Shown here: in pieces, positions 3,511 to 23,368 of the stretch
Layout of the letters: the number at the start of each line of letters is the position of its first letter
How positions within the stretch are numbered: the stretch's first letter is position 1
The notes under the pieces: generated by a model
The model's input: only the letters and a program-made list of their open reading frames with translations
Databases searched by the model: none
What the model was told of the DNA's origin: nothing
Made by a program: the position numbers and the translations under genes
Origin: a bacterium
Lineage (GTDB): Bacteria; CAIWAD01
Assembly (NCBI GenBank): GCA_030429345.1
Contig: JAUIFJ010000039.1
Span: forward strand, 1-26,780
Length of the DNA: 26,780 bases
Direction: 5' to 3'

Positions 3511-5280
3511 ATGATCCGCATAATCATGAACGGTTCCCCAATGGAAGTGGAAGAGGGAACCCGTGTACTCGCCGCCGCACAGGATGCCGGTGTCCGTATT
3601 CCGACCCTGTGCTACCACAAGGACCTCTGCGTGGCGGGCAACTGCCGTGTCTGCCTGGTCGAAGTGGAGGGCCAGCGCGCCCTCCAGGCGGCCTGCGCAT
3701 TGCCCGTGTCGGAGGGCATGACGATCCGCACCAACAGCGCCGCCGTGCGCGCCGCGCGCAAGCATGTGATCGAGCTGCTGCTCAGCGAACACCGGGTCGA
3801 CTGCCTGAAGTGCGCCCGCAACGGGAACTGCGAACTGCAGAACCTGGCCGAGGAATACCGGGTGGAGGAGCGCGAGTTCATCGACCTTGGACTGGAACGA
3901 AGCCTGGATCGCAGTTCGCCCTCGATCGAGAAGGACGACAGCAAGTGCATCCGCTGCCAGCGCTGCGTCCGCACCTGCACCGAGCTGCAGAGGATTTCCG
4001 CGCTGACTGTCGCACACAAGGGCAGCAAGATGCGCGTGGACACTTTCTTCGGGAATCCTCTGGGTGACGTGGTGTGCTCCAACTGCGGCCAGTGCGTCAG
4101 CCGCTGCCCGACGGGAGCGCTGGTGGAACGGTCCTCCATCGACTCGGTCTGGTCGGCGCTCGACAATCCGAAACTCCATGTTGTCGTACAGACCGCGCCG
4201 GCTGTCCGCGTGAGCATCGGCGAAGAGCTCGGCTGCGAGCCGGGAAAGCGTGCTACAGGACAGATGGTCACCGCCCTGCGGCGGCTCGGCTTCGACAAGG
4301 TCTTCGATACGGACTTCACGGCGGACCTGACGATCATCGAGGAGGGACACGAACTGCTCCGGCGGCTAAAGGCCAAACTCCTGGATCACGACGAGAACAC
4401 GGTCCTGCCCATGTTCACCTCCTGCTCGCCGGGCTGGGTCAAGTTCCTGGAACACCAGTTTCCCGAGCACCTGGAGAACCTCTCCACCTGCAAGTCTCCG
4501 CAACAGATGTTCGGCGCCCTGGCCAAGACCTGGTATGCCTCCCAGGCGCAGGTCGATCCCGAGAACGTGGTCGTGGTATCGATCATGCCCTGCACGGCGA
4601 AGAAATTCGAGGCCGACCGCCCCGAGATGCGCAGCGTCGGAGCGCGGCCGGATGTGGATCACGTGCTCACCACTCGGGAACTGGCGCGCATGATCCGTCA
4701 GTCCGGTTTCGATTTCGGGAAGCTGGAAGAACAGGCCTATGACACCCTGCTGGGGACGAGCACCGGGGCGGGCGTGATCTTCGGAGCGACGGGCGGCGTC
4801 ATGGAAGCTGCGCTGCGCACCGCCTACGAAGTGGTCACCGGGCGGCCAGTGCCCTTCCGCAACCTGGAGATCCTGCCAGTGCGCGGCATGGAGGGAATCC
4901 GCGAGGCCGTGATCCCGATCGAGGGCTGCCTGCCGGAATGGAGTTTCCTGGAAGGCGTTGATCTGCGCATCGCGATCACGCACGGGCTGGCCAATGCCTG
5001 GGAACTGATCGAGGGCATCAAGGCAGGCAGGCTCAGCTACCACTTCATCGAGGTGATGGCCTGCCCAGGCGGCTGCCTGGGCGGCGGCGGCCAACCGATC
5101 CCGACGGACATGGAGATCCGCCTGGAACGCATGGCGGCGATCTACGAGGAAGACCGGCAGATGCCCCTGCGCAAGTCACACGAGAATCCGGATGTGCAGC
5201 GCCTCTACGAGGAGTTCCTCAAGGAGCCGCTCGGCGAGAAGTCGCATGAGCTGCTGCACACGCACTACACGGCCCGGTAG
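3511..5280 (+). CDS. hydA: [FeFe] hydrogenase catalytic subunit
   Basis: 589 residues, group A [FeFe] hydrogenase of the HndD type, forming or oxidising H2. Domains in order: ferredoxin [2Fe-2S] (C34, C45, C48, C62); His-ligated [4Fe-4S] (H94, C98, C101, C107); two [4Fe-4S] clusters (C146/149/152/156 and C189/192/195/199); H-cluster domain with L1 TSCSPGW (303-309), L2 MPCTAKKFE (359-367) and L3 ACPGGCLGGGGQP (517-529); then a small-subunit-like C-terminus to 589. L1 has Ser306 where TSCCPGW is usual, and an extra Cys327 lies in LSTCKSPQQ. No C-terminal extra [2Fe-2S] domain is present. GGGAG at 3501-3505 supports the start, 12 bases after hydB. The HydE/F/G maturases needed for the H-cluster are not in the window. 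Confidence 0.95.
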   Translation: MIRIIMNGSPMEVEEGTRVLAAAQDAGVRIPTLCYHKDLCVAGNCRVCLVEVEGQRALQAACALPVSEGMTIRTNSAAVRAARKHVIELLLSEHRVDCLKCARNGNCELQNLAEEYRVEEREFIDLGLERSLDRSSPSIEKDDSKCIRCQRCVRTCTELQRISALTVAHKGSKMRVDTFFGNPLGDVVCSNCGQCVSRCPTGALVERSSIDSVWSALDNPKLHVVVQTAPAVRVSIGEELGCEPGKRATGQMVTALRRLGFDKVFDTDFTADLTIIEEGHELLRRLKAKLLDHDENTVLPMFTSCSPGWVKFLEHQFPEHLENLSTCKSPQQMFGALAKTWYASQAQVDPENVVVVSIMPCTAKKFEADRPEMRSVGARPDVDHVLTTRELARMIRQSGFDFGKLEEQAYDTLLGTSTGAGVIFGATGGVMEAALRTAYEVVTGRPVPFRNLEILPVRGMEGIREAVIPIEGCLPEWSFLEGVDLRIAITHGLANAWELIEGIKAGRLSYHFIEVMACPGGCLGGGGQPIPTDMEIRLERMAAIYEEDRQMPLRKSHENPDVQRLYEEFLKEPLGEKSHELLHTHYTAR

Positions 5281-5391: not shown

Positions 5392-8300
5392 TTACTTCAC
5401 AAGCAGCATCTTGCGATGCAGCTGTCCACGGGGCGTTTCGAGACGAGCGATGTATACACCGCTGGCCAGGTTCGAGGCCTGGAAGAGCGCCTCGTAGCGG
5501 CCGGCGGCCTGCTCGCCATCGACCAGCGTCGCCACCAGGGCGCCTCGCAGGTCGAAGACCGTCAGGCGCACCATGCCGGCTTCCGGCAGCTCGTAGGGAA
5601 TGAGCGTGCTCGGATTGAAGGGATTGGGATAATTCGGCTCCAGGCTCAACGCGGCCGGCAGGGCGGGCTCGATCGAGGTCTCGCCGCGCGTCTCCAGCTG
5701 GATCACCGCGTTCTGCGTCAGGTTGTGGATCGGGTTGGTCTGGAGCACCAGGGTTTCGCTGTGATACCCGGCGCGGCTGAAGTAGACATTGTAGCCCGTG
5801 TTGGCGGACAGGCCGCCAAGGCTGTACTGGCCGGTCGAGGTGCTGAAAGTGTAGTGCGCCAGGTTGCCGTCCTGTGAAACCGCCAGCACGAGCGCGCCGC
5901 CGACCGGACCGCCTCCCTGGTTGATCACGCTGCCCAGCAGGACATGATTGCCGGCCTGCCCGCTCAGCGGGTGCAGCTGCACATCCAGGCCCGCGTGATC
6001 CGTCATGGCATCGACGCTCTGCGCGTTGTCCAGGCTGTGCACGCCGCCCGAGAAGCTCGGGGCGTAGCCCGGCGCCAGGTACATCAGGACCACGTCTTCG
6101 TCGAAGGGATTGCCCACGGAGTACTGGCCGTTGGCCGCCGCCACCGTTCGCACTCCCGTGCCATCGGGGTCGAAGACCGCCACCAGGCCGCTGCCGAGCG
6201 GGTTGCCCTCGGGGTCCTGGATCTCGCCGCCGATGGTGCTCAGCGCGTCGCTGGCCTCGTCCAGGCTGAAATTCATGTTGGTGATGCTGGCGTCGTCGCT
6301 GAAGCTGAACTGCGTCGCCGTCTCGAAACTCGGCGAGTCGGAGAAGAACTCCATGTCGAACAGTTCGTGCTCGCTGCTGACCGTGAAGGGCACGATCGGC
6401 AGACGGTCGAGAACAAGGGTGGCGTCCCAGTAGCCCTCGTCGTCCGTCAGCGTGAAGGTGTCCAGCTCGCCCTGCTGGGTCCAGAAGCGAACTGTGGCTC
6501 CAGGCACGCCTTCGCCGGAGGAGTTGGTGACACGACCGCTCACGTTGACCACGATCGGATCCGGATCCTGTCGCGGCACCTCGAAATCGATGCTCTCGAT
6601 CACGTCTCCGGGCATCACGTCGATCAGGGTCGCGTCTTCCAGGCTCGTGACATTATCGAAGAACTCCATGTACTCCATGCCGTTTCCGTTGCCGTCGTAG
6701 AGCACGCGCACGGAAACAGCGTACTGCCCTTCCGGCACTTCCAGCGACCAGCCGCCCGAAGGGGAGGTCCAGGTGCTGTAGCTGATCGGATTGCCGGCAT
6801 TCGGATTGAAGGCCTCGATCAGCGCGAAAGCCGGCAGGCCACCCTGTTCGGTCGTGACCGCACCGCTCAACATGCCCATCAGCATGCCGCCGTCCTGCGG
6901 CGTCAGGAAGACCTCCACTTCGAGGCTATCCCCCTGGCCGGCCATCAGCTGAACGACCTCCGGCAGGTAGCCTTCCGCCTCGACCATCAGCTCGAGGTAG
7001 AGGTTGTACTCCAACAGCGGCGGAAACTCGAAGGAGCCATCCTGTCCGGTGACCGTGGCATTGAAATCCGCTCCGCCCATCAGAAGGACGACGGCCTCCG
7101 GGACGGGTTGGCGAGTAATATTGTCTACAACCGTTCCCATGACGATCAGGTCGCCCTCTTCCCCGTCCCTCTGGGCCATGGAGAAGTTGAATTCGTTCTC
7201 GCCTTCCTGCAGCACGAGCTGCTCGAAGTGGGCGTAGTATCCGGGAGCCTGGGCGGTCAGCTGTGTGGGTCCCGCCAGCAGGCCGGCAACCTCGTACTGG
7301 CCCTGCGGTCCGCTTTGCACATGGCGCATGTCTCCATTGGCTCCCGGCAGGAAAAGGTCCACGCCGGAAATCCCTTCGCCGGTGAGGGAATCGGTCACCG
7401 CGCCGAAGAGCAGGGCGTTCCCTCCGCCGTTGCCGCTCAAGGGCTGTAACACGATGTCGAGAGTGTTCCCGCCCTCGGCCAGGAAGATCTCCGAATCGAA
7501 GGGGAAATACGCAGGGTGATCCACGTTGACGAAGCTCGGCCCGGCAAGCAGGCCGGTGACCTCGTAAAAGCCCTGCTCATCCGTGAAGACCGGAGGATCC
7601 ACGGGACGCATGCCAGGCAGGAAGACCATTGCCTCCGGCACGCCCAACCCGGTTTCCGCGTCGGTCACCTGGCCGCCCAGGTCTGCCAGCACTTCCTCGC
7701 CTTCCGTCACCAGGCCGATCTCGACGAAGACCTGCGGCTCGAAGACCTGCAGGACCGAAGTGTACTCGCTGAAGCCCGCGCTCCAGGCCACCAGCTGGTA
7801 TACGCCCGTTTCCACGTCCAGCGCGAAGGTTCCCGCCTCGCCCGTGGAAGCCGAGTAGACAATGCCGGAGTTGCTCATAAGGTGAATTTCCGCGCCGGGC
7901 ACGGGCGACTGGTCCTCGACGTTGTATACCAGGCCTTCGACCACGCTGAACTCGCCGCCATTGCCGATGGGCTGCAGCTGGAAGTCCAGGGAATTGTCGC
8001 CCTCCTCAAGCATCAGGTCCAGGGCGAACTCGTAATAGCCGGGGTGCGAGGCGAAGAGCTCTCCGGGACCGGGGAAGAGGCCGCTGATGAAGTAGTGGCC
8101 GCTCTCGTCCGTGTAGAAGATCGGGTCCGCCGGACTCATCGGGACATGGATCTCCACTCCGGCCAGGGGAATGCCGGTTTCGGCATCGGTCACCTGTCCC
8201 GCAAGGGTCGAGCCGTTCGCCGCGTCTTCGAGCTGGATCGTGATCCCGTTCTCGCCCTGCTGCAGGTCGACATCGGTGACGACAGTCTGGAAGCCGAAGG

Positions 8301-9333
8301 CCTCCACGGCCAGTGACCACAAACCGCTTTCGACGCCGAGGAACTGGAAGCTTCCGTCCTCGCTTGTTTCCGTGAAGTGAGGAATCCCGAAATCACGCGT
8401 GATACTGACGAAGGCTCCCGGAACGGGCATCCCCATGTCGCCATGTACGACAAGGCCTTCCAGGTCCGCGTCCCCGTTTCCGATTCCGTCCGACAGGGCC
8501 AGGCTGACGAAGTTCTCTCCCGGCTCCAGCAGATAGTCCATGAACAGGGGCTGGTAGCCTTCCTTCTCCGCCTGAATGAAGACCGGTCCGGACTGGAGGC
8601 TGTCGATGAAGAAGCCGCCATCCTCGCCGCTGACCGTCGACCAGAATTCGAAGGGGCCGCGGCCGATGGAGACCTGAACGCCTCCAAGCAGGTTCCCGCT
8701 TTCGGCATCCAGTGTGACACCTCCCAGGCTGGCCGCTTCGGGATCGCCCCCGCCGGTCTGCATCACGAAGTCATAGGAGTTGACTCCCGCCTCAAGCGTC
8801 AGGAAGGGATCGAAGTACTCGGCGTAGCCTTCCGCTACCGCAAGGAAGGACTGCGTGCCCGTGAACACTTCGAAGGAATAGAAGCCGCTTTCATCGGTGA
8901 AGTGCAGATCGTCGGTCGGTCCTGTCGGCTGCAGGATCTGCACACCGGGAATCCCCGACCCGCCTTCGTCGTACGCATAGCCCTGGATCGTCCCCGTGCC
9001 GCCGCCGTTCTGCGGCTGCATCTGGAAACTGTAGGCGGTCTCCCCTTCGCCCACCTGGACTGCCTGGTCGACATACTCCTGGTAGGCCGGGTGGATCGCG
9101 AAGAGCGGAGCGACGGTCCCCGGCTCCAGATTCTGTATTACATAGTTGCCGTTCTCGTCGGTCATCACGGCGGGATCCACCGGATTTCCCAGAAAGCGTA
9201 TCTGCGCCTCGACAACGGGGTCTCCGGTCACGGCATTCGTGACCTGTCCGGCGAGGCTGGCTGCCTGCAGGCCGCCACCCCAGGCGAGGCCGGCCAGCAA
9301 GGCCCATTTCAGCGCTTTTCCACTACTGAACAT
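5392..9333 (-). CDS. Large T9SS-exported surface protein with about 13 carboxypeptidase-regulatory-like domains
   Basis: 1313 residues. Signal peptide MFSSGKALKWALLAGLAWGG..., cleaved near LQA-AS. From about residue 27 to 1215, about 13 beta-sandwich modules of 85-100 residues begin with variants of LAGQVTDAETGIPLAGVEI and continue with a TDExGxYxxxGL...G turn, the pattern of the carboxypeptidase regulatory-like (transthyretin-like) fold. The C-terminal 85 or so residues are a T9SS sorting tail (NYPNPFNPSTLIPYELPEAG ... KMLLVK). It is acidic and rich in Gly, Glu and Asp. It is inferred to be a long, stiff cell-surface or secreted adhesin-like molecule; no enzyme domain is seen. AAGGAG lies eight bases before the ATG. 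The first 11 bases overlap the end of the upstream regulator gene, so the two are cotranscribed and probably coupled. Confidence 0.9.
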   Translation of the reverse strand: MFSSGKALKWALLAGLAWGGGLQAASLAGQVTNAVTGDPVVEAQIRFLGNPVDPAVMTDENGNYVIQNLEPGTVAPLFAIHPAYQEYVDQAVQVGEGETAYSFQMQPQNGGGTGTIQGYAYDEGGSGIPGVQILQPTGPTDDLHFTDESGFYSFEVFTGTQSFLAVAEGYAEYFDPFLTLEAGVNSYDFVMQTGGGDPEAASLGGVTLDAESGNLLGGVQVSIGRGPFEFWSTVSGEDGGFFIDSLQSGPVFIQAEKEGYQPLFMDYLLEPGENFVSLALSDGIGNGDADLEGLVVHGDMGMPVPGAFVSITRDFGIPHFTETSEDGSFQFLGVESGLWSLAVEAFGFQTVVTDVDLQQGENGITIQLEDAANGSTLAGQVTDAETGIPLAGVEIHVPMSPADPIFYTDESGHYFISGLFPGPGELFASHPGYYEFALDLMLEEGDNSLDFQLQPIGNGGEFSVVEGLVYNVEDQSPVPGAEIHLMSNSGIVYSASTGEAGTFALDVETGVYQLVAWSAGFSEYTSVLQVFEPQVFVEIGLVTEGEEVLADLGGQVTDAETGLGVPEAMVFLPGMRPVDPPVFTDEQGFYEVTGLLAGPSFVNVDHPAYFPFDSEIFLAEGGNTLDIVLQPLSGNGGGNALLFGAVTDSLTGEGISGVDLFLPGANGDMRHVQSGPQGQYEVAGLLAGPTQLTAQAPGYYAHFEQLVLQEGENEFNFSMAQRDGEEGDLIVMGTVVDNITRQPVPEAVVLLMGGADFNATVTGQDGSFEFPPLLEYNLYLELMVEAEGYLPEVVQLMAGQGDSLEVEVFLTPQDGGMLMGMLSGAVTTEQGGLPAFALIEAFNPNAGNPISYSTWTSPSGGWSLEVPEGQYAVSVRVLYDGNGNGMEYMEFFDNVTSLEDATLIDVMPGDVIESIDFEVPRQDPDPIVVNVSGRVTNSSGEGVPGATVRFWTQQGELDTFTLTDDEGYWDATLVLDRLPIVPFTVSSEHELFDMEFFSDSPSFETATQFSFSDDASITNMNFSLDEASDALSTIGGEIQDPEGNPLGSGLVAVFDPDGTGVRTVAAANGQYSVGNPFDEDVVLMYLAPGYAPSFSGGVHSLDNAQSVDAMTDHAGLDVQLHPLSGQAGNHVLLGSVINQGGGPVGGALVLAVSQDGNLAHYTFSTSTGQYSLGGLSANTGYNVYFSRAGYHSETLVLQTNPIHNLTQNAVIQLETRGETSIEPALPAALSLEPNYPNPFNPSTLIPYELPEAGMVRLTVFDLRGALVATLVDGEQAAGRYEALFQASNLASGVYIARLETPRGQLHRKMLLVK

Positions 9334-12839: not shown

Positions 12840-15314
12840 CTACAATCCCGGCCGCGCCGCCTCGGCTTCGATCTCGCCGCCGCTCATGCCCGTGTGACGG
12901 TAATACATCTGCAGGTACTCGTAGGCCAGTTCGCTGGGAATGCTGTCGTAGCGCCCCAGGTGGGCATTGTTGAAGGATTCGGCCAGGCCGCTGAGGATCA
13001 CGCGTCCCTCGCCGATCCGGACTTCGCTGGCGACCGGCGTTCCGTCCTCCAGGCGGTAGAAGGGCTGTCCGCCCTGCACCGGGATCGCGCTTTCCAGGAA
13101 GATCGGCAGATCGTGATTCGCGCCTTCCACGAGCACGTTCCGGGAAAGCTCCCTGCCGAAGGATAAACCGTAGTCGGACAGCCAGTCCTCAAGAGCCGCG
13201 TCCGGCAGCTCATTGCCTGCGGCGACCAGCAGCTCTCCCCCGCTCTTGACGAAATCCAGCAGTTCGCCGCGGAAACCGTCTTCCGGCGCCCTCTCGGGAT
13301 TCAGGATCACATACTGCTTCGTGTCCGGCTCGATGTGTTGGCGCGAGAGTTCGGGAATGCGGCCGGAACGATAGAGCCAGATGTAGGCCGTCTCCATGTT
13401 CCGCGGATCGTTGTCCTCGATCTTGTTCTTGCGCGGCAGGAGGATGTCGGACAAGTCCTCGTCCAGCGCGACTCCCTCCAGGCTGTGCCGGCGTTCGGGC
13501 AGATCGTAGATCGCGGCATTGAGGGCCAGCACCAGGGGAACGACCACGGCCGCCGCCAGCAGCAGATGGTCCGGCATGCGTGAGACAACCAGCTGCCCCT
13601 TGCGCACGGCGGCAAGGGCCAGCGCAAGGGCCAGGAAGAGAAAGAGCCAGAAGGCCTGCAGCGGAAAGCTGATCCGATTGAGGTACTGCACGATTCCCAT
13701 CAGGTGCTCGAAGCGCCCGGGCAGGAACATGGCGAAGTTGGAATAGGTCGTGCTGTCGCTGAAGCCGAGCACACGGCCGCGGCCATAGCGGGCGCTGACC
13801 ACCTGGACCAGGTTTCCTGCGCGCAACTCGGTGCGGGGGTAGTATACATCGAAGAAGTTGGAGGTGTTGTAGCTCAGCAGGTCGCTGCCGCACTGGGTTC
13901 CGACAGCGGCAAGCCCGCTGCGCCAGCCCGGCTTCACGCTGCAGCCGGTCAGGTAGCGGTACCAGGGCAGATGCTGCATCGCCGGGTGGGGAATCACATC
14001 CTGCTGTTCCCAGAACTGGTCGTTGGTCGTGTTCAGGTCGAAGACCGTGTCCTTGTTGTAGATGAAGCCGAAGTGCTGCGTGATCTCATTGAGAAAGGTG
14101 CTCATGCCGAAGACGTCGGTATGATCGCTGATCGTATACAACCCGCCGCCCTTGTGCACGAACTCCAGCACGGCCTCCTGCTCGCTCTCCGAATAGGCGC
14201 GGGTCGGCGTTTTGAGAATCAGCACATCGACCGTGTCCAGCAGCGCGGGCGTCAGCTCCTCGAAGTTCACCGTCGCGCTGTAGTGGCGCTTGAGCAGGCT
14301 GCCCAGGCCGTGGTAGTTGTAGGTCGTGCGCGTGCCGAACTGCCGGGTGTTCATGGGGTCGCCGACCCATTCCCAGTCGCTGTGTCCGTCGTCGATGAGA
14401 ACCCGCCCCGGCTTTTCGCTGCCCGGAAAATGGAAGCAAAGGGCCAGCAGCAGACACAGGGAAGCCAGTGCCGGCAGCCAGCCCGCAGTCGGCGTTTCGG
14501 CGGGAGCAGCCTCCTTCGGCGACGTCCATGCCGCCAGGCGCGCTGCCAGCAGGACCGGAGGCAGGCCCAGGAAGAACTGGTATACGGGGCTCCAGGGAAT
14601 CTCGAACTGGTAGAGCATGGCCGCGAGCAGGCTCTGCACGGGAAAGGCCACACCGGCCCAGACCCAGCCCCCCAGGGCGCACAACAGCAGGGCCGGCCCA
14701 AGCCGGGAGAAGCGGCTGCGGGCGGCAAGCCCCATGGCGAGCAGAAGGCCCAGGGCGAAGATTCTGTAGTACAAACCGGTCCACTCGGGGCCCAGGCTGA
14801 AGGGCAGGCTTTCGTCGGGCAGGCGAAGCACGAGTTCGTTGCCCAGGACGGCGGCATCCGTACCCGCCAAACGTGCGACACGCTCGGCCAGCCAGCCGAT
14901 GGGCAGGTCGCGCTCGATCATCGTGTGCAGGTAGATCGAGAACTTGATGCCGACGAAGCCCGCCAGGCCGCCATAGCCCGCCAGGCGCAGGGCAGCACCC
15001 AGGCGGCGCGCCAGTCGATCCTTGAGCAGAAGCAATAGACTTCCCGCCGCGACCAGCGTCATGGCCGGCAGCCCGTGTTCCGGCAGGAAGAAGAGCAGGA
15101 GCAGCGCGGCGACTCCGGGCACCAGGGCCCGCAAGGGGCTGCCGGCGGGAGCAGGCCGCGAGCCGAACCAGGCCAGGAACACGGACAGTCCGAGGAACAC
15201 AAGGGCAGTCGGCAGAGGTGCCGCCGGAAGCGTGTAGACGGGAAACAGGGCGGAGGTCGAGGCGAATCCCAGGTAGAGTGCCAGACCGGTGAACAGAGTC
15301 AGCCGCGTGTTCAT
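12840..15314 (-). CDS. Membrane protein with two amidotransferase-like extracytoplasmic domains (DUF4350-like), paralogue 2
   Basis: 824 residues. About eight or nine hydrophobic helices fill residues 1-300. They are followed by an alpha/beta domain (about 308-560; RVLIDDGHSDWEW, LDTVDVLILKTPTRAYSESEQEAVLEFVHKGGGLYTISDHTDV), two more membrane helices (about 570-630) and a second alpha/beta domain (about 635-815; GELLDFVKSGGELLVAAG, IGEGRVILSG). The first domain resembles class I glutamine-amidotransferase-like or DUF4350 domains, which often lack catalysis; I see no Cys-His-Glu triad. It overlaps its paralogue by ATGA and follows it in the same operon. A transport-accessory or envelope-assembly role is possible, but no partner ABC gene is present. 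Function unknown. Confidence 0.75.
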   Translation of the reverse strand: MNTRLTLFTGLALYLGFASTSALFPVYTLPAAPLPTALVFLGLSVFLAWFGSRPAPAGSPLRALVPGVAALLLLFFLPEHGLPAMTLVAAGSLLLLLKDRLARRLGAALRLAGYGGLAGFVGIKFSIYLHTMIERDLPIGWLAERVARLAGTDAAVLGNELVLRLPDESLPFSLGPEWTGLYYRIFALGLLLAMGLAARSRFSRLGPALLLCALGGWVWAGVAFPVQSLLAAMLYQFEIPWSPVYQFFLGLPPVLLAARLAAWTSPKEAAPAETPTAGWLPALASLCLLLALCFHFPGSEKPGRVLIDDGHSDWEWVGDPMNTRQFGTRTTYNYHGLGSLLKRHYSATVNFEELTPALLDTVDVLILKTPTRAYSESEQEAVLEFVHKGGGLYTISDHTDVFGMSTFLNEITQHFGFIYNKDTVFDLNTTNDQFWEQQDVIPHPAMQHLPWYRYLTGCSVKPGWRSGLAAVGTQCGSDLLSYNTSNFFDVYYPRTELRAGNLVQVVSARYGRGRVLGFSDSTTYSNFAMFLPGRFEHLMGIVQYLNRISFPLQAFWLFLFLALALALAAVRKGQLVVSRMPDHLLLAAAVVVPLVLALNAAIYDLPERRHSLEGVALDEDLSDILLPRKNKIEDNDPRNMETAYIWLYRSGRIPELSRQHIEPDTKQYVILNPERAPEDGFRGELLDFVKSGGELLVAAGNELPDAALEDWLSDYGLSFGRELSRNVLVEGANHDLPIFLESAIPVQGGQPFYRLEDGTPVASEVRIGEGRVILSGLAESFNNAHLGRYDSIPSELAYEYLQMYYRHTGMSGGEIEAEAARPGL

Positions 15315-17947
15315 TTGCCACCTCCCGCGCCCGGACGGTTTCCATGACGGATCGGCGCTCGCCGGCGCTCGCCGGGCGTCGTGCCCGGCCGGGTCGCCGG
15401 TTGCCGGACGGCTCCCGGCGGCCTGCGCATGGCTCCGGGCGTCGGACGGCTGCCGGGCTGCCCTCCCGGGCTCATCTGCGGACGGGGCATGGGAAGATTA
15501 AGCAGGCCATGCACGAGCTGCTTGCGGCGCTCGATGCGGTCCGGCGGCACCAGGGGCGGAGAAGGCGCGACGCGATGCAGGCTGTCGCCCCAGGACGCCA
15601 GGTAGCGGTTCTTCGCCGCGTTGCCCGGAGGCGGCGGGCGGCGTGATACAGACTCCGCCATGAAGCGCCGCGCCGTGTTGAGCGGCTTGCCGTTGCGCTC
15701 CGTTCCTTCCAGGCTGTACTTGCTGAAGAAGCGCTCGTCCCCGATCACCGTCACGTGCCCCCTGCCGATGTCCTTGTCCCCGATCACCGGGAAATCCCAG
15801 CAACTGAGCAGCGTGTCCAGCGGTTCTCCCGTGCTCGCCACGGGCCAGGCCTCGTAGAACAGGAAATCCGTCGGCCGGCCGAAACGATCCTTGCTGTCCG
15901 GCGCGGTTCCGAGCGGGATGTCCTGGATCTCCATCTCGAACTCCTCCAGAAGCGGCTCCAGGGCTGCAACACGACGGGCATCACCGGCGATCAGCAGGTG
16001 CCCCCCGGCCTCGACCCACTCGCAAAGGTCCCTGCTGTCGCCGCCGCTGAAGGTCTTCCCCGGCCCGTTGACCAGCAGCCAGCGCGAGCCCCCCAGCAGG
16101 TCGGTGTCCACGTCCCACAGGAAAAGCGGAAGCCGGCCCGCGTTGTATACACTCTCGACCAGGGCCATCGAGCTCCAGTCCATGTTGCTGTTGCTGTGGA
16201 AGGCGGGCTGGTGCGAGTAGTCGATCCAGCAGATGTTCTCCGCGCTCGCAGGGGCAGGCACGCTCTCGCTGCTCGCCGCCCTGGAAAAGGGCAGCGCCAG
16301 CAGGCAAAGCAGCAGCACCAGGCCTTCGCGCTCCCTGGTGCCCAGGGCAGGGGTTGCCGCCAGGAGCAGCCCAAGGGCAAGGACCCAGAGGATCATTCCG
16401 GGAAGCGGGCTGGCGGAAGCGCTGCCGCGGGCCAGCCAGCTGACCAGGTTCAGGTAGAAGGGCCAGGTCTGGGGCGTGCTGAGGCTCATCAGTCCGGAGG
16501 TGTCGCCCTGCACGAAGAGCACGCCCTTGCCCACCTTTTCCATGGCGCACAGGGGAATGCTTCCGAAGCGCTCGTCCCAGGTGTAGCGGTTATCGCCCAT
16601 TTTTCCGCGGACATTGTCCGGGTTCCCCGTGTCGGAAAAGGCCATCGTCCCCTGGATCACGGGCAGGGCCGGCCACTCCAGCTGGAGGCTGCCGCCGATG
16701 CTGATGCCGTACTGGTTCGCCTCTTTCATGCCTCGCGTGGCTCCGGACACCAGGTAATGCTGCACATGGTTCCAGTTCCAGCCCCGCCAGGCGGGAATCG
16801 CCGAGTCGTCCTTCAAGCGGATTCCGCTGCGGGAGATCACCGAATTGACGCCCAGCATGATGTCGTGCACGTTCGTGTGTTCGCCGACCACCAGCACCGC
16901 GCCGCCATCTCGCATGAAATCGTCCAGCTTGCCTCGCAGGGCTGTCGGCGCGGCCTCCGTCGGATGGATCACGAAGATCACGTCGTACTCGCCCATGCGC
17001 TCGGCGAGTTCCGGATCCTCGAGGATGTCGACCTGGGCGCCCCAGGCGCGCAACACGTCCAGCAATCCGCCCATGCGCGGGCCGGGACGCGTGCCTTCAC
17101 GCGTGCTCTCCCAGGACCAGTCCCCGTTCTCGCGGAAGGCGACCTTCAGGCCTTCCACGGAGGTCGAGGCCGGCGGCAGGGCGGTCCAGCAGAGCGCGAG
17201 CAGCGCCGCCAGTCCTCCCAGGCCCGCCACTCGCGCGCGGCTGGCGGAAAGCCTCGAAGGCCTGGACATGGAGGGGGCACCGGCAAGGCAGGCCGGCAGG
17301 GCGGAAAGGAGCAGCAGAAGAAAAGCGGGCAGGAAGGGAATATTGGCCGGAGCCTGCTCACGAGTCAGGAACCAGCCTCCAAGAAGCACGAGAAACAGGG
17401 GCAAGGAGGCGAGCCGAAGGCGTGCCGCGCCTTTGCCGGATGCGCGCAGGCCGGCCAGGACCTGGATCAGCAGCAGGGCGAAAGCGGGCCCCACGCCTGT
17501 CGTGCTGCCCCATTCCGGATGCAGTCCGGCAGGCAGCGCCGCCAGCGAAACCAGAGCGCCGGTCAGCCATTCGCCAATCCAGTAGAGCTGGGGAAGCCAG
17601 AAGACCTGGGCCGTCATTGCAGCCGCCAGCACAACAATCGTTCTGCGTTCAACCGGTCGGGCCCGCTCCTCCAGCAAGGCAAAGGGAAGCAGACCAAAGA
17701 GCGCAAAGGCCGGGTGCAGCATCAGGGGCAGCAGCAGCGACAGCACGCCAGTCAAGGCAAGAAGCAAGGTGCGCGAGCCCAGGGAAAGCAGCAGGAAGAG
17801 CAGCAGCGCGGCGCACCCCGCAGGCTGGGCCATGGAGGGCGGCAGGGCTGGAAGAAATCCCCCGAGGAGGGCCAGACCCGCAAGGAAGGTCACTTCGCGA
17901 AGGGCCCCGATGGAGCGCTCGCGCATCATGGAGAAAACTTCACTCAT
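15311..17947 (-). CDS. Membrane protein with two amidotransferase-like extracytoplasmic domains (DUF4350-like), paralogue 1
   Basis: 878 residues with the same plan as its neighbour: an N-terminal bundle of about nine hydrophobic helices to residue 265; an alpha/beta domain at about 270-525 (GLKVAFRENGDWSWE, YDVIFVIHPTEAAP, FMRDGGAVLVVGEHTNV); two membrane helices (about 530-580); and a second alpha/beta domain to about 800 (LCEWVEAGGHLLIAGD, GRGHVTVIGDERFF). The paralogues share the (D/E)HT(D/N)V motif and the GDWSWE/SDWEWV start. The last 60 residues are a Pro/Arg/Gly-rich basic tail absent from the partner. No good ribosome site lies before the ATG at 17947, which overlaps the end of a small upstream frame; ATG codons six and seven positions in are alternatives. 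Function unknown. Confidence 0.75.
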   Translation of the reverse strand: MSEVFSMMRERSIGALREVTFLAGLALLGGFLPALPPSMAQPAGCAALLLFLLLSLGSRTLLLALTGVLSLLLPLMLHPAFALFGLLPFALLEERARPVERRTIVVLAAAMTAQVFWLPQLYWIGEWLTGALVSLAALPAGLHPEWGSTTGVGPAFALLLIQVLAGLRASGKGAARLRLASLPLFLVLLGGWFLTREQAPANIPFLPAFLLLLLSALPACLAGAPSMSRPSRLSASRARVAGLGGLAALLALCWTALPPASTSVEGLKVAFRENGDWSWESTREGTRPGPRMGGLLDVLRAWGAQVDILEDPELAERMGEYDVIFVIHPTEAAPTALRGKLDDFMRDGGAVLVVGEHTNVHDIMLGVNSVISRSGIRLKDDSAIPAWRGWNWNHVQHYLVSGATRGMKEANQYGISIGGSLQLEWPALPVIQGTMAFSDTGNPDNVRGKMGDNRYTWDERFGSIPLCAMEKVGKGVLFVQGDTSGLMSLSTPQTWPFYLNLVSWLARGSASASPLPGMILWVLALGLLLAATPALGTREREGLVLLLCLLALPFSRAASSESVPAPASAENICWIDYSHQPAFHSNSNMDWSSMALVESVYNAGRLPLFLWDVDTDLLGGSRWLLVNGPGKTFSGGDSRDLCEWVEAGGHLLIAGDARRVAALEPLLEEFEMEIQDIPLGTAPDSKDRFGRPTDFLFYEAWPVASTGEPLDTLLSCWDFPVIGDKDIGRGHVTVIGDERFFSKYSLEGTERNGKPLNTARRFMAESVSRRPPPPGNAAKNRYLASWGDSLHRVAPSPPLVPPDRIERRKQLVHGLLNLPMPRPQMSPGGQPGSRPTPGAMRRPPGAVRQPATRPGTTPGERRRAPIRHGNRPGAGGGK

Positions 17948-18401: not shown

Positions 18402-18431
18402 TTGACTCGTCGGGCAAATGTCTCTTACAAT
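18402..18431 (+). promoter_or_regulatory. Strong sigma-70 promoter of the decapeptide-repeat gene
   Basis: -35 TTGACT (18402-18407), 18-base spacer, -10 TACAAT (18426-18431): five of six matches in each box. Transcription would begin near 18438, giving a leader of about 100 bases. This rules out the upstream GTG at 18336 as the start of the gene. Confidence 0.75.
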
Positions 18432-18491: not shown

Positions 18492-18539
18492 CCTGTAGTC
18501 TATTCACACAGTTTCAAGAGCCATCGACTGGAGGTCATG

Positions 18540-21500
18540 ATGTCAGCGAGAGACCTGTCCAGAAACCGTTTGCCATTCCTGGCGACAATCGCCCTGGCGT
18601 GTTGTCTGCCTTTGCAGAATGTGCTTGCGGCGGGGACAACACCGCTCTTCGACTACCAGACCCGCTCAACGGTGGAGCGCTTCAATCGACAACTGGTCGA
18701 TGTGGAGAACGGCTCCAACGCGGCGGAGAAGAAGTCGCAGCAGCAAGGCGTGGTCACGGGAGTAACCCCGACCGACCCGAACTACCATCCATTGTGCGCA
18801 GGGCCCACGAACCCCATGTTCGAGCCCCAGTGCCAGACCAATCCGATCCTGGATCCGAACTGCGCGGAGCCGACCAATCCGCTCTTCGATCCCGATTGCC
18901 CCTACGCGACCAATCCGACCTATGATCCGGATTGCCCGCCGACGGATCCGATGTACGATCCGGCCTGCGCCGAGCCGACGAATCCCGAATTCGATCCGGA
19001 CTGCGCGCAGCCGACGAACCCGGTCTTCGACCCCGATTGTCGCACGAATCCCATGTACGACCCCGAGTGTCCGCCGACGGATCCGACCTATGATCCCGAG
19101 TGCCAGACCAATCCGGAGTGGGACCCCTTCTGTGTGACGGATCCGCTGCACGACCCGACCTGCACGGAAACGAATCCCCAGCACAACCCCGACTGCCAGA
19201 CCAATCCGGAATTCGATCCGATCTGTCAGACAGACCCGAACTACGACCCGGTCTGCCAGACGGATCCCGATTTCGATCCGGTCTGCGTGACGGACCCGGC
19301 GATCGATCCCAGCTGCGTGACCAACCTGGCCTACGACCCCTCTTGCGAGACGAATCCAGACTACGATTCCATGTGCGCCACCGATCCGGCTTTCGATCCG
19401 GACTGCGGCGACACGGATCCTCGCTTCAACCCGGCCTGCGCGCAGACCAACCCGATGTACGACCCGTCCTGCCTGACGGATCCCGCGGTGAATCCGGAGT
19501 GCTACGACACCAATCCGCAGTACTACTCGGCCTGCCAGACCAATCCGAACTGGGACCCGACCTGCGACGGTTTCACGGACCCTGCCTTCAGCACAGAGTG
19601 CTCGACCAACCCGGCATTCGACCCGCAGTGTCACACCAATCCGCAGTTCGACCCGGTCTGCCAGACCAACCCGCAGTACAACCCGGACTGCCAGACCAAT
19701 CCCATCTGGAACCCCGACTGCTACACCAACACCTACTACGACCCGAATTGCCTGAGCAATCCGGCCTACGATCCGCACTGCTTCACCAACCCGGTGGACG
19801 GCACGGAGTGCGTCAGCAACCCGATCTACGATCCTAGCTGCGAGACCAATCCGGCCTACGGCTTCTGCGAGACGGATCCGCAGTTCGAGCCCAATTGCAC
19901 CACAGACCCGGTCTGGGATCCCGATTGTGTGACCAGCCCGTATTTCGACCCCTATTGTCACACCAACCCGCAGTTCGCGCCGCTCTGCAAGACCAATCCG
20001 GAGTACGTGCCGGGCTGCAGCACCAACCCGCTCTACGATCCGACCTGCCAGACCAATCCGGACCTGGACCCGCACTGCGAGACCAACCCGGACTGGAACG
20101 GCGTCTGCGAAACCAACCCGCTCTACGACGTCAACTGCGTGACGGACCCGGTCCACAGTCCCGTCTGCGAGACCAATCCGGCCTACAGCCCCTACTGCGA
20201 GACCAATCCAGAGTACGCCAGCTGCAGCACGAACCCCATCTTCGACACCAGCTGCGAGACCAATCCCCAGTGGGACTTCTGCCAGACCAATCCGCAGTTC
20301 GACCCGGCCTGCGACACCAATCCGCAGTACTTCCCGCAGTGCGTGACCAACCCGGCCTTCGACCACCAGTGCCACACCAACCCGGGCCACGACCCGCATT
20401 GCGACACGAATCCCGAGTACGTGGCGGGCTGCGACACGAATCCGCTCTGGAATCCGCTGTGCACGACGAACACCTTCTACGATCCGGGCTGTGAGACGGA
20501 TCCGGACTATGATCCGAGCTGTTTCACGGATCCCGCCTCCGGCGTGACCTGTGATACGAATCCGCTCTACGTGCCGCAGTGCGAGACCAATCCCGCCTGG
20601 GGCTACTGCGAGACCAACCCGCAGTACGAGCCCGGTTGCGAGACCAATCCGCAGTGGATGGTCGGCTGCCAGACGGATCCCTACTACGACCCGGCCTGCG
20701 AGACCAATCCGGCCTACAGCCCGAACTGCCTGACCAATCCGGAATACGACCCGGATTGCCAGACCAATCCGATCTGGAACCCGGAATGCCTGACCAATCC
20801 CGACCTGGATCCGACTTGCCACACGAATCCGGACTGGGCCGGCGGCTGCGACACGAACCCGCAGTACAACCCGGACTGCCAGACCAACCCGGGCTACGAT
20901 CCCGAGTGCATCACGAATCCGCACTTCGATCCGCATTGTGATACGAATCCGGCCTACATGCCCCAGTGCATGACCAACCCGATTTTCGACAACAACTGCG
21001 AGACCAACCCGGACTACGGCTTCTGCCTCACCAACCCCTACTACCATCCGGGATGCGACACGAACCCGACCTACTACGACCAGTGCGTGACGAACCCCGA
21101 CTGGGACATGCAGTGCACCACCAATCCGCAGTGGGACCCGGGCTGCCAGCCGACGGATCCGGCTTTCGACCCCGATTGCCACACCAGTCCGGCCTATGAC
21201 CCGCTGTGCTTCCAGACCAATCCGGTCTACTACGCGGAATGCATGACGGACCCGGTCTTCGACCCGACCTGCGGACAGGACACGGACCCGGCCTACTGGC
21301 CCCAGTGCGCCACCAACCCGGTCTGGGATCCGGGCTGCCTGACCCACCCGCAGTACCAGCCCGAGTGCGAGACGAATCCGGAGTACCAGGCCGGTTGCGA
21401 CACCAACCCGATCTACAATCCGGACTGCTGGTCGAATCCCTTCTATGATCCGACCTGCCAGACGAATCCGGCCTACGATCCGCACTGCTTCACCAACCCG

Positions 21501-23309
21501 GTGGACGGTGTCGACTGCGTGACCAACCCGATCTACGATCCGCAGTGCGAGACGAACCCGAGCTACGGCTTCTGCGAGACGGATCCCCAGTTCGAGCCCA
21601 ACTGCACCACGGATCCGGTCTGGGATTCCGAGTGCGTGACGAGCCCCTACTTCGATCCCTATTGCCACACGAACCCGGAATACGCACCGCTCTGCGAGAC
21701 GAATCCCGAGTTCGGCAACTGCGAGACGAACCCGCTCTACAGCCCGAACTGCCAGACGAATCCGCTCTTCGATCCGGACTGCGAGACGAACCCGGACTTC
21801 GGCATCCCCTGTGATACGAATCCGCAGTACAACGACGAGTGCGCGACGAATCCCTTCTACGATCCTGTCTGCGCGACGAATCCGGCCTACGACACCTACT
21901 GCGATACGAATCCGCAGTGGACGCCTGGCTGCAACACGAATCCGCTCTTCGTCCGCGAGTGCGAGACCAATCCGGCATGGGACTTCTGCGTGACCAATAC
22001 CCAGTTCGATCCCAGCTGCGACACGAACCCGCACTACTTCCCGCAGTGCCAGACCAATCCGGTCTACAGCCGCGAGTGCCACACGGACCCGGCCTTCGAC
22101 CCGCACTGCGAGACGAACCCCGAGTACACGGCGAACTGCGCGACGAACCCGATCTTCGATCCCTACTGCTCGACGAATCCGTTCTATGATCCGGGCTGCT
22201 ACACCAATCCGGACCATGACCCGCACTGCTTCACCAACCCGAGCGACGACGGCACGGTCTGCGAGACCAACCCGATCTACACTCCGCAGTGCGAGACGAA
22301 TCCGAGCTACGGCTTCTGCACGACCAATCCCGAGTTCGAGCCCGGCTGCGAGACCAACCCGCAGTACAGCCCCTTCTGCACGACCAATCCGCGTCACGAC
22401 CCGGAATGCGTGTCGAACCCGCTGTACAGTCCCTTCTGTGACACGAACCCGGCCTACGACCCGAGTTGCAGCACCAACCCGATCTACGATCCGACCTGCG
22501 CCACGCATCCCGAGTACGATCCGCTGTGCCAGACGAATCCCGAGTTCGGCATCAGCTGCGACACGAACCCGGCCTGGAACGTGCTCTGCGTGACGGACCC
22601 GCACTTCGATCCGAACTGTCATACGAACCCGGGCTTCGATCCGCATTGCCAGACGAACCCGCAGTTCATCATCAACTGCGTGACGAACCCGATCTTCAAC
22701 CCCAACTGCCAGACGAATCCGGTCTTCGGCTTCTGCCTGACGAATCCCTTCTTCCACCCGGGCTGCAACACCAATCCGGTGTTCTACCCCTGGTGCACGA
22801 CCGACCCGGTCTGGGATCCCGTCTGCGTGACGAACCCGACCTTCGACCCGGCCTGCGGTTGGACCAACCCGGTCTTCGATCCGAATTGCGCGACCAACCC
22901 GCTCTTCGATCCGACCTGTACGACAAATCCGGTCTTCGATCCGAACTGCTCGACGAATCCGCACTACGAGCCGCGCTGCTGCTGGGCTCCGGACACGCTG
23001 GAGATCGAGCTGCTGAACCTGGATCCGGACATCCAGCTGACCTGGGATCCGGTACCCTTCGCCACGAGCTACAAGATCCACGCGCGCCGCGCGACGGGTC
23101 CCTGGTTCGTAATCGCTGAGACGGCCCAGACCAGCCACGTCTTCTCGCCGCCGACGACGACGGAGGATTCGGTCTACAGCTTCCGCATCGAGACGGTCTG
23201 CGGACCGCCGCCGGTCAGCTCGGAAAGCCGTGACCCGCACGACGAGAGACTCCATGGAACGCCACTCGAGGGACTGGCGCCCACCTGGAACAACGGCAAC
23301 AAACGCTAA
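18540..23309 (+). CDS. Secreted giant protein of 139 Cys-terminated decapeptide repeats with a C-terminal FN3-like domain
   Basis: 1589 residues from the ATG at 18540. GGAGG at 18530-18534 is five bases from this ATG; the ATG at 18537 is too close. A signal peptide (MSARDLSRNRLPFLATIALAC..., cleaved near VLA-AG) and a linker of about 50 residues precede the repeats. Positions 18772-22980 encode 139 consecutive units of consensus x-T-N-P-x-(F/Y/W)-D-P-x-C, each ending in one Cys; most are 10 residues, a few 9, 11 or 12. Early units are more irregular (PT or AEPT spacers). The last 105 or so residues contain a fibronectin-III-like domain (IQLTWDPVPFATSYKIHARR ... YSFRIETVC) and a short polar tail, with no T9SS FPNPFNP tail. 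It is inferred to be an extracellular, disulfide-rich or metal-binding filament or coat protein. No CxxCH haem motif occurs. Confidence 0.92.
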   Translation: MSARDLSRNRLPFLATIALACCLPLQNVLAAGTTPLFDYQTRSTVERFNRQLVDVENGSNAAEKKSQQQGVVTGVTPTDPNYHPLCAGPTNPMFEPQCQTNPILDPNCAEPTNPLFDPDCPYATNPTYDPDCPPTDPMYDPACAEPTNPEFDPDCAQPTNPVFDPDCRTNPMYDPECPPTDPTYDPECQTNPEWDPFCVTDPLHDPTCTETNPQHNPDCQTNPEFDPICQTDPNYDPVCQTDPDFDPVCVTDPAIDPSCVTNLAYDPSCETNPDYDSMCATDPAFDPDCGDTDPRFNPACAQTNPMYDPSCLTDPAVNPECYDTNPQYYSACQTNPNWDPTCDGFTDPAFSTECSTNPAFDPQCHTNPQFDPVCQTNPQYNPDCQTNPIWNPDCYTNTYYDPNCLSNPAYDPHCFTNPVDGTECVSNPIYDPSCETNPAYGFCETDPQFEPNCTTDPVWDPDCVTSPYFDPYCHTNPQFAPLCKTNPEYVPGCSTNPLYDPTCQTNPDLDPHCETNPDWNGVCETNPLYDVNCVTDPVHSPVCETNPAYSPYCETNPEYASCSTNPIFDTSCETNPQWDFCQTNPQFDPACDTNPQYFPQCVTNPAFDHQCHTNPGHDPHCDTNPEYVAGCDTNPLWNPLCTTNTFYDPGCETDPDYDPSCFTDPASGVTCDTNPLYVPQCETNPAWGYCETNPQYEPGCETNPQWMVGCQTDPYYDPACETNPAYSPNCLTNPEYDPDCQTNPIWNPECLTNPDLDPTCHTNPDWAGGCDTNPQYNPDCQTNPGYDPECITNPHFDPHCDTNPAYMPQCMTNPIFDNNCETNPDYGFCLTNPYYHPGCDTNPTYYDQCVTNPDWDMQCTTNPQWDPGCQPTDPAFDPDCHTSPAYDPLCFQTNPVYYAECMTDPVFDPTCGQDTDPAYWPQCATNPVWDPGCLTHPQYQPECETNPEYQAGCDTNPIYNPDCWSNPFYDPTCQTNPAYDPHCFTNPVDGVDCVTNPIYDPQCETNPSYGFCETDPQFEPNCTTDPVWDSECVTSPYFDPYCHTNPEYAPLCETNPEFGNCETNPLYSPNCQTNPLFDPDCETNPDFGIPCDTNPQYNDECATNPFYDPVCATNPAYDTYCDTNPQWTPGCNTNPLFVRECETNPAWDFCVTNTQFDPSCDTNPHYFPQCQTNPVYSRECHTDPAFDPHCETNPEYTANCATNPIFDPYCSTNPFYDPGCYTNPDHDPHCFTNPSDDGTVCETNPIYTPQCETNPSYGFCTTNPEFEPGCETNPQYSPFCTTNPRHDPECVSNPLYSPFCDTNPAYDPSCSTNPIYDPTCATHPEYDPLCQTNPEFGISCDTNPAWNVLCVTDPHFDPNCHTNPGFDPHCQTNPQFIINCVTNPIFNPNCQTNPVFGFCLTNPFFHPGCNTNPVFYPWCTTDPVWDPVCVTNPTFDPACGWTNPVFDPNCATNPLFDPTCTTNPVFDPNCSTNPHYEPRCCWAPDTLEIELLNLDPDIQLTWDPVPFATSYKIHARRATGPWFVIAETAQTSHVFSPPTTTEDSVYSFRIETVCGPPPVSSESRDPHDERLHGTPLEGLAPTWNNGNKR
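19692..22856 (+). repeat. Two copies of a 57-unit super-repeat inside the decapeptide array
   Basis: Units 30-78 (19692-21146) align in register with units 87-135 (21399-22856), an offset of 57 units or 1707 bases. Marker units agree: VTSPYFDPYC (38 and 95) and ETDPQFEPNC (36 and 93) are identical in protein. Nine-residue units at 35, 49, 60 and 74 recur at 92, 106, 117 and 131. Within each copy a 25-unit offset is also visible (31 with 56, 35 with 60, 49 with 74). Confidence 0.85.
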
Positions 23310-23333
23310 CCCTCAATCACCGTCTACAAAACA

Positions 23334-23368
23334 GCCCCGCTCCGGATTTCCGGAGCGGGGCTTTTCTT
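23334..23368. terminator. Bidirectional Rho-independent terminator
   Basis: Perfect 12-bp stem GCCCCGCTCCGG (23334-23345) with CCGGAGCGGGGC (23350-23361) and loop ATTT. It is followed by TTTTCTT on the forward strand and by TGTTTTG on the reverse strand. It lies 24 bases after the decapeptide-repeat gene and would also end polA transcripts arriving from the other side. Confidence 0.92.

Follow-up and report, generated by a model that had tools for sequence, protein, structure and literature searches.

Keratin-associated proteins and the small proline-rich proteins of skin carry short Pro- and Cys-rich repeats that are cross-linked into a tough coat. Similarly, thrombospondin type 3 repeats, rich in N-P and Asp, display Cys along an extended chain. 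Among surface proteins with short Cys-containing tandem repeats, BAD-1 of Blastomyces is described as having 41 of them (PMC3708853). Cargo of the T9SS of Porphyromonas bearing C-terminal sorting domains is reported to cross the outer membrane and to be anchored to the surface (PMC8545088, PMC5562754). The enzymes presented as making disulfides in bacteria are DsbA, DsbB and VKOR (PMC11208910), and unusual Dsb enzymes are described in Helicobacter (PMC4597128).

The locus compared here with these systems lies in a window of 26,780 nucleotides, the whole of one contig of source genome G000 (4.24 Mb, 98% complete, 92 contigs). The Cys-repeat protein that it encodes has the longest array among the members found of an exported repeat family that seems confined to its lineage, and whose shorter members are the paralogue P0001 of the same genome and P0002 of the sister-genus genome G001. 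The features of the gene and its surroundings are the following.

12840-15314, reverse strand: second DUF4350/ABC_transp_aux gene (Pfam), syntenic neighbour, 39% identity over 806 residues to the next G001 gene
15311-17947, reverse strand: DUF4350/ABC_transp_aux gene (Pfam), syntenic neighbour, 41% identity over 525 residues to the gene adjoining the G001 relative
18402-18431, forward strand: promoter-like site TTGACT-18-TACAAT upstream of the gene (consensus scan, 10/12 matches, shuffles mean 0.1; a consensus match alone is no evidence of function)
18537-23309, forward strand: gene for the exported Cys-repeat protein of 1590 residues, an open reading frame with ATG at 18537 and GC3 of 0.85
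18537-18629, forward strand: signal peptide read by eye, with likely cleavage by signal peptidase I between VLA and AGTT
18630-18764, forward strand: N-terminal head (TPLFDYQTRSTVERFNRQLVDV...) and linker, about 45 residues, the head common to P0001 and P0002
18765-22979, forward strand: 139 Cys-terminated units, of which units 1-26 are irregular and TDP-rich and are followed by two related blocks of ~57 units each
22980-23306, forward strand: FN3-like C-terminal domain and short tail (structure model and Foldseek), without T9SS sorting domain
23333-23362, no strand assigned: strong stem-loop terminator with a 13-bp stem and 11 G-C pairs, between the repeat gene and convergent polA, which are only 158 nt apart

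A Shine-Dalgarno-like GGAGG at 18530-18534 stands just 5' of the ATG, and the stop codon ends at 23309. On the opposite strand an ORF of 1529 residues mirrors the Cys-repeat array and was set aside. Elsewhere in the window, positions 1-232 at the contig end hold 19 copies of the 12-bp tandem repeat GCACCGTCCCTG (92% matches), 3511-5280 on the forward strand encodes an iron-only hydrogenase whose N-terminal part is an NADH-dehydrogenase-G-like iron-sulfur region, and 5392-9333 on the reverse strand encodes a T9SS protein of 1313 residues in which CarboxypepD_reg domains are numerous and which partly resembles a model of an anammox S-layer glycoprotein.

The initial annotation described 139 consecutive decapeptides of the form x-T-N-P-x-aromatic-D-P-x-C behind a signal peptide, at 18772-22980. 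The number of units and their position behind the signal peptide are confirmed, with the array now placed at 18765-22979, and the outline of the decapeptide is right although idealised, since units range from 9 to 12 residues (10 residues in 111 units, 11 in 11, 9 in 10 and 12 in 7) and the array contains 126 T[ND]P and 111 T[ND]P-x-aromatic but only 44 complete T[ND]PxArDPxC motifs. Each unit ends in a single Cys, giving 139 Cys in the 1405 residues of the array and 141 in the mature protein. All Cys spacings in the array fall within 9-12 residues, against at most 29% in composition-preserving shuffles (n=1000), and the number of T[ND]P motifs compares with at most 15 in shuffles. The array is strongly acidic, with 209 Asp and Glu against 7 Lys and Arg, and includes 170 aromatic residues and 32 His; CxC and CxxC pairs are absent from its sequence.

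Similarity is highest between units 57 positions apart (z 10.7) and has a lesser maximum at 25 (z 5.7). Offsets of 1-10 give no signal against shuffles, and the window array displays no two-unit periodicity. TDP is found in 42% of units 1-26 vs 12% of later units. The array is read here as two copies of one block (units ~27-83 and ~84-139), the block itself deriving in part from a 25-unit duplication. Judged by these offsets, growth is by large-block duplication and not by recent single-unit slippage, but the 57-unit period may have a structural cause in addition to a historical one. Between copies at that distance dS is 0.71 and dN 0.29 (best stretch dS 0.66, dN 0.17), values by which the array is under purifying selection.

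That misassembly, or repeat expansion without function, produced the length of the array is barely credible. The 139-unit form does occur in one genome only, and the window is one contig of 26.8 kb in an assembly of 92, but dN is well under dS at offset 57, relatives with 7 and 24 units exist, and one open frame of 1590 codons runs across the array (GC by codon position 0.52, 0.50 and 0.85). In addition, every unit differs in DNA from every other, a point against misassembly, and with no exact repeat of 50 nt or longer within the array its ordering by ordinary short reads should be feasible. As far as DNA-level checks of the assembled sequence tell, the array is real.

The two relatives share the plan of the protein at much smaller size. 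P0001 (G000:C79, 250 residues) displays a signal peptide, the head TPLFEYQTR..., 7 Cys-terminated units of 10-14 residues that go with 7 mature Cys, and a T9SS sorting domain. P0002 (346 residues), recovered only with P0001 as the query (E 0.004), displays the head SPLYQYQTK..., 24 Cys-terminated units with 24 Cys, and a sorting domain; 16 of the 24 units are 7-mers (ATDPQWC and variants; xTDPxWC) and its array is without Lys or Arg. The Por_Secre_tail model (PF18962) scores 29.4 bits for P0001 in the genome search (cut-off 27) and 26.5 bits in the protein scan, and 26.1 bits for P0002 (E 1.1e-5), just below the cut-off, while the 1590-residue protein gives no match to it. A 22-residue head, [TS]PL[FY]xYQT[RK], follows the signal peptide in all three proteins, and the signal peptides of P0001 and P0002 end at the same position relative to the head as that of the window protein. 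The score of the head similarity is reached by 0 of 200000 shuffles for every pair of the three proteins, and among the genome sequences examined the head motif is found nowhere beyond them. A lipoprotein reading of Cys22 of the window protein is set aside because the signal peptide of P0001 has no Cys.

The genes beside the relatives, a comparison proposed by the initial annotation, differ between the two. P0002 has as its immediate neighbours two DUF4350/ABC_transp_aux genes that share 39% and 41% identity with those next to the window gene, and this synteny is conserved between the window gene and its G001 relative. P0001 is instead found beside flagellar genes; in its locus (L081, 9501-17451 of G000:C79) it stands upstream of, and is divergent from, the genes for flagellar rod, FlgA, FlgI and FlgK proteins. 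Because of the shared head and the synteny with P0002, the window gene is taken to be a syntenic and hugely expanded member of the family, in which an FN3-like end stands in place of the sorting domain of its relatives. Unit length varies across the orthologous genes (7 residues in P0002 vs 10 in the window protein), but Thr-Asn/Asp-Pro, an aromatic residue and Cys are retained at either length.

The decapeptide was initially said to belong to no named family, and this holds in the libraries searched. NCBIfam and PADLOC contain no matching model, PHROGs gives only weak matches to the FN3-like end, no solved structure in the PDB matches the repeat profile, and the repeat is not described in the open-access literature. 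The Pfam family Extensin_1 (PF02095) scores 163.7 bits, above its gathering cut-off of 105; membership is rejected since the Ser-Pro(3-4)/SPPP motifs that define the family are absent from the array, and similar composition is the best account of the match. By these searches the Cys-repeat family is an undescribed one.

Its distribution agrees with the expectation that relatives are confined to one phylum, as far as tested. The 10-residue profile is present only in the source genome among the five genomes representing the phylum, finds nothing real in a 386-genome sample across the domain, and motif scans of the 10-residue form over 84,980 species genomes and viral contigs, from which records near the source genome were perhaps left out, find nothing; scans with six peptide patterns also find nothing. 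These collection-wide scans used the 10-residue form and would let 7-residue arrays escape detection, so lineage restriction is supported for the long form only. Family members are thus found, to the extent of these scans, only in two related genera of one small phylum. Two viral matches to the 7-residue form were rejected because they come from the opposite strand of a phage gene whose protein has an AAEGIGG repeat, matches in plasmids and phages by tblastn look like low-complexity sequence (two inspected), and a match in G051 was rejected as the antisense of a GRPQGFAPTS repeat. The latter is a tandem 10-codon repeat of an unrelated genome (G051:C1 near 3121200, L005), which reads GRPQGFAPTS on one strand and opens an ORF.

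An FN3-like domain had been assigned to the C-terminus, and the model of this region is a beta sandwich of moderate confidence (pLDDT 84-90 in the core), for which Foldseek ranks FN3 domains first among PDB structures (E 0.02-0.03, weak; probability 1.00). The assignment is supported to that extent, but Pfam fn3 does not fire on the domain. In the array, modelling of 10-20 units had been proposed, and AlphaFold2 applied to 13 units gives a mean pLDDT of 33, almost no secondary structure and no fold; the input was an 11-row self-alignment with ten other array stretches, and the low confidence is no proof of disorder.

A rod-like solenoid stapled by disulfides, as first suggested, or stabilised by ions, in the manner of insect antifreeze beta-helices or thrombospondin type 3 wires, is an improbable reading of the array. 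The almost even placement of Cys along the window protein, one to every 10 residues, would suit it, and the genome encodes haem-copper oxidases, so chemical oxidation outside the cytoplasm is possible. In contrast, unit length is not fixed, with 7-residue units in the syntenic relative, no pairing periodicity exists at 2-10 units, both proteins of the source genome have odd mature Cys counts (141 and 7), no fold is predicted and no PDB profile match is found. Furthermore, DsbA, DsbB and VKOR are all undetected in this 98%-complete genome with Pfam models that do ring in control genomes, which argues against disulfides in the array. The disulfide-stapled solenoid is not supported by these results. 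Cys counts of T9SS cargo (n=55) are even in 23 proteins, odd in 28 and zero in 4 (p 0.58). Some T9SS cargo proteins of the genome are Cys-rich and look disulfide-type despite the lack of DsbA, DsbB and VKOR.

The main rival to a structural role, itself unlikely, is a metal-binding sink or scavenger in which thiols, carboxylates and histidines would capture metals outside the cytoplasm with a capacity set by length. The 139 Cys, 209 Asp/Glu and 32 His of the array provide such ligands, and with no Dsb enzymes the thiols may stay reduced. Nevertheless, the spacing from Cys to the other ligands is not conserved between relatives (7 vs 10 residues), the array is without CxC or CxxC pairs, and no metal transport or resistance gene is found among the neighbouring ORFs examined. 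The metal-loaded extracellular filament that the initial annotation gave as an alternative to the solenoid is a candidate reading. Much the less probable is a polyprotein precursor, cut by a protease or at labile Asn-Pro and Asp-Pro bonds into many small Cys peptides. Nearly every unit contains T[ND]P, and many contain DP as well, but no dibasic or other conserved protease site is present (7 Lys and Arg in 1405 residues), no maturation enzymes occur among the identified neighbours, and the units vary more than repeated copies of a single product would.

The best explanation, which should be held tentatively, is that the window protein is an acidic polymer of the cell surface or matrix, long and probably extended, which would be joined by cross-links or metal bridges outside the cell. 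The sequence itself establishes the architecture and export signal, the family and its synteny, growth by block duplication, purifying selection and composition. A change of unit length (7 vs 10) in which T-[ND]-P, the aromatic residue and Cys persist is what a flexible sticker-and-spacer chain would show, and the acidic, aromatic-rich composition and the unfolded AlphaFold2 model also speak for this reading. The array would form an extended, acidic, non-globular chain with a contour of up to about 0.48 micrometre, in which turns at Thr-Asn/Asp-Pro would hold sticky aromatic and thiol groups apart, every unit contributing a single turn, aromatic residue and thiol. The genome encodes SprA (663.9 bits for the frame), so the T9SS machinery is present, together with about 130 T9SS sorting domains over the cut-off, and by extension from Porphyromonas cargo the short T9SS-tailed members would be attached to the outside of the cell. 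The long protein, in which the sorting domain is absent and whose surface location is for that reason not established, might work in the periplasm or exit by another route; its passage across the outer membrane is the weakest step of this proposal. It would be joined to the surface or matrix via its FN3-like end or its head. Disulfides between neighbouring chains, arising with no Dsb enzyme, may cross-link them; alternatively, metal ions may bridge thiolates and carboxylates of neighbouring chains. The outcome would be a tough coat or tether. A bolder and rather doubtful extension is that these proteins constitute a new class of bacterial exported structural polymer, bearing a thiol and an aromatic residue in each short unit and assembled outside the cell by non-enzymatic disulfides or metal-thiolates in a bacterium that lacks Dsb enzymes, with short T9SS-anchored members docking the giant one.

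If the proposed role is true, bacteria would have in this protein an equivalent of Cys/Pro-rich coat proteins, with exported thiols (141 in the mature protein) at an unusually high density for an organism without recognised disulfide-forming enzymes. This raises the question of the state of the cysteines outside the cytoplasm and of the agent by which they are oxidised or metallated. Protein materials that bear thiols might also be modelled on the short, nearly regular unit.

The likeness to each described system is partial. Extensin_1 plant wall proteins also consist of short Pro- and Tyr-rich repeats, whereas the window protein is bacterial, acidic and has one Cys per unit. The family resembles T9SS cargo in that P0001 and P0002 both end in a Por_Secre_tail sorting domain; in contrast, the window protein gives no PF18962 match and the Cys-repeat array itself is not in the libraries searched. 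Blastomyces BAD-1 is likewise a surface protein with short Cys-containing tandem repeats, but these are disulfide-closed loops of 17 residues with WxxWxxW, while the window array has one Cys per unit, is without that motif and is unrelated. Thrombospondin type 3 repeats differ by their DxDxDG calcium motifs, which the array does not have, and the TSP_3 profile gives no Pfam match at E<1 in the window protein. Finally, the keratin-associated and small proline-rich proteins of skin are of animal origin, with other motifs and no homology, and it is in working principle only that the window protein is like them.
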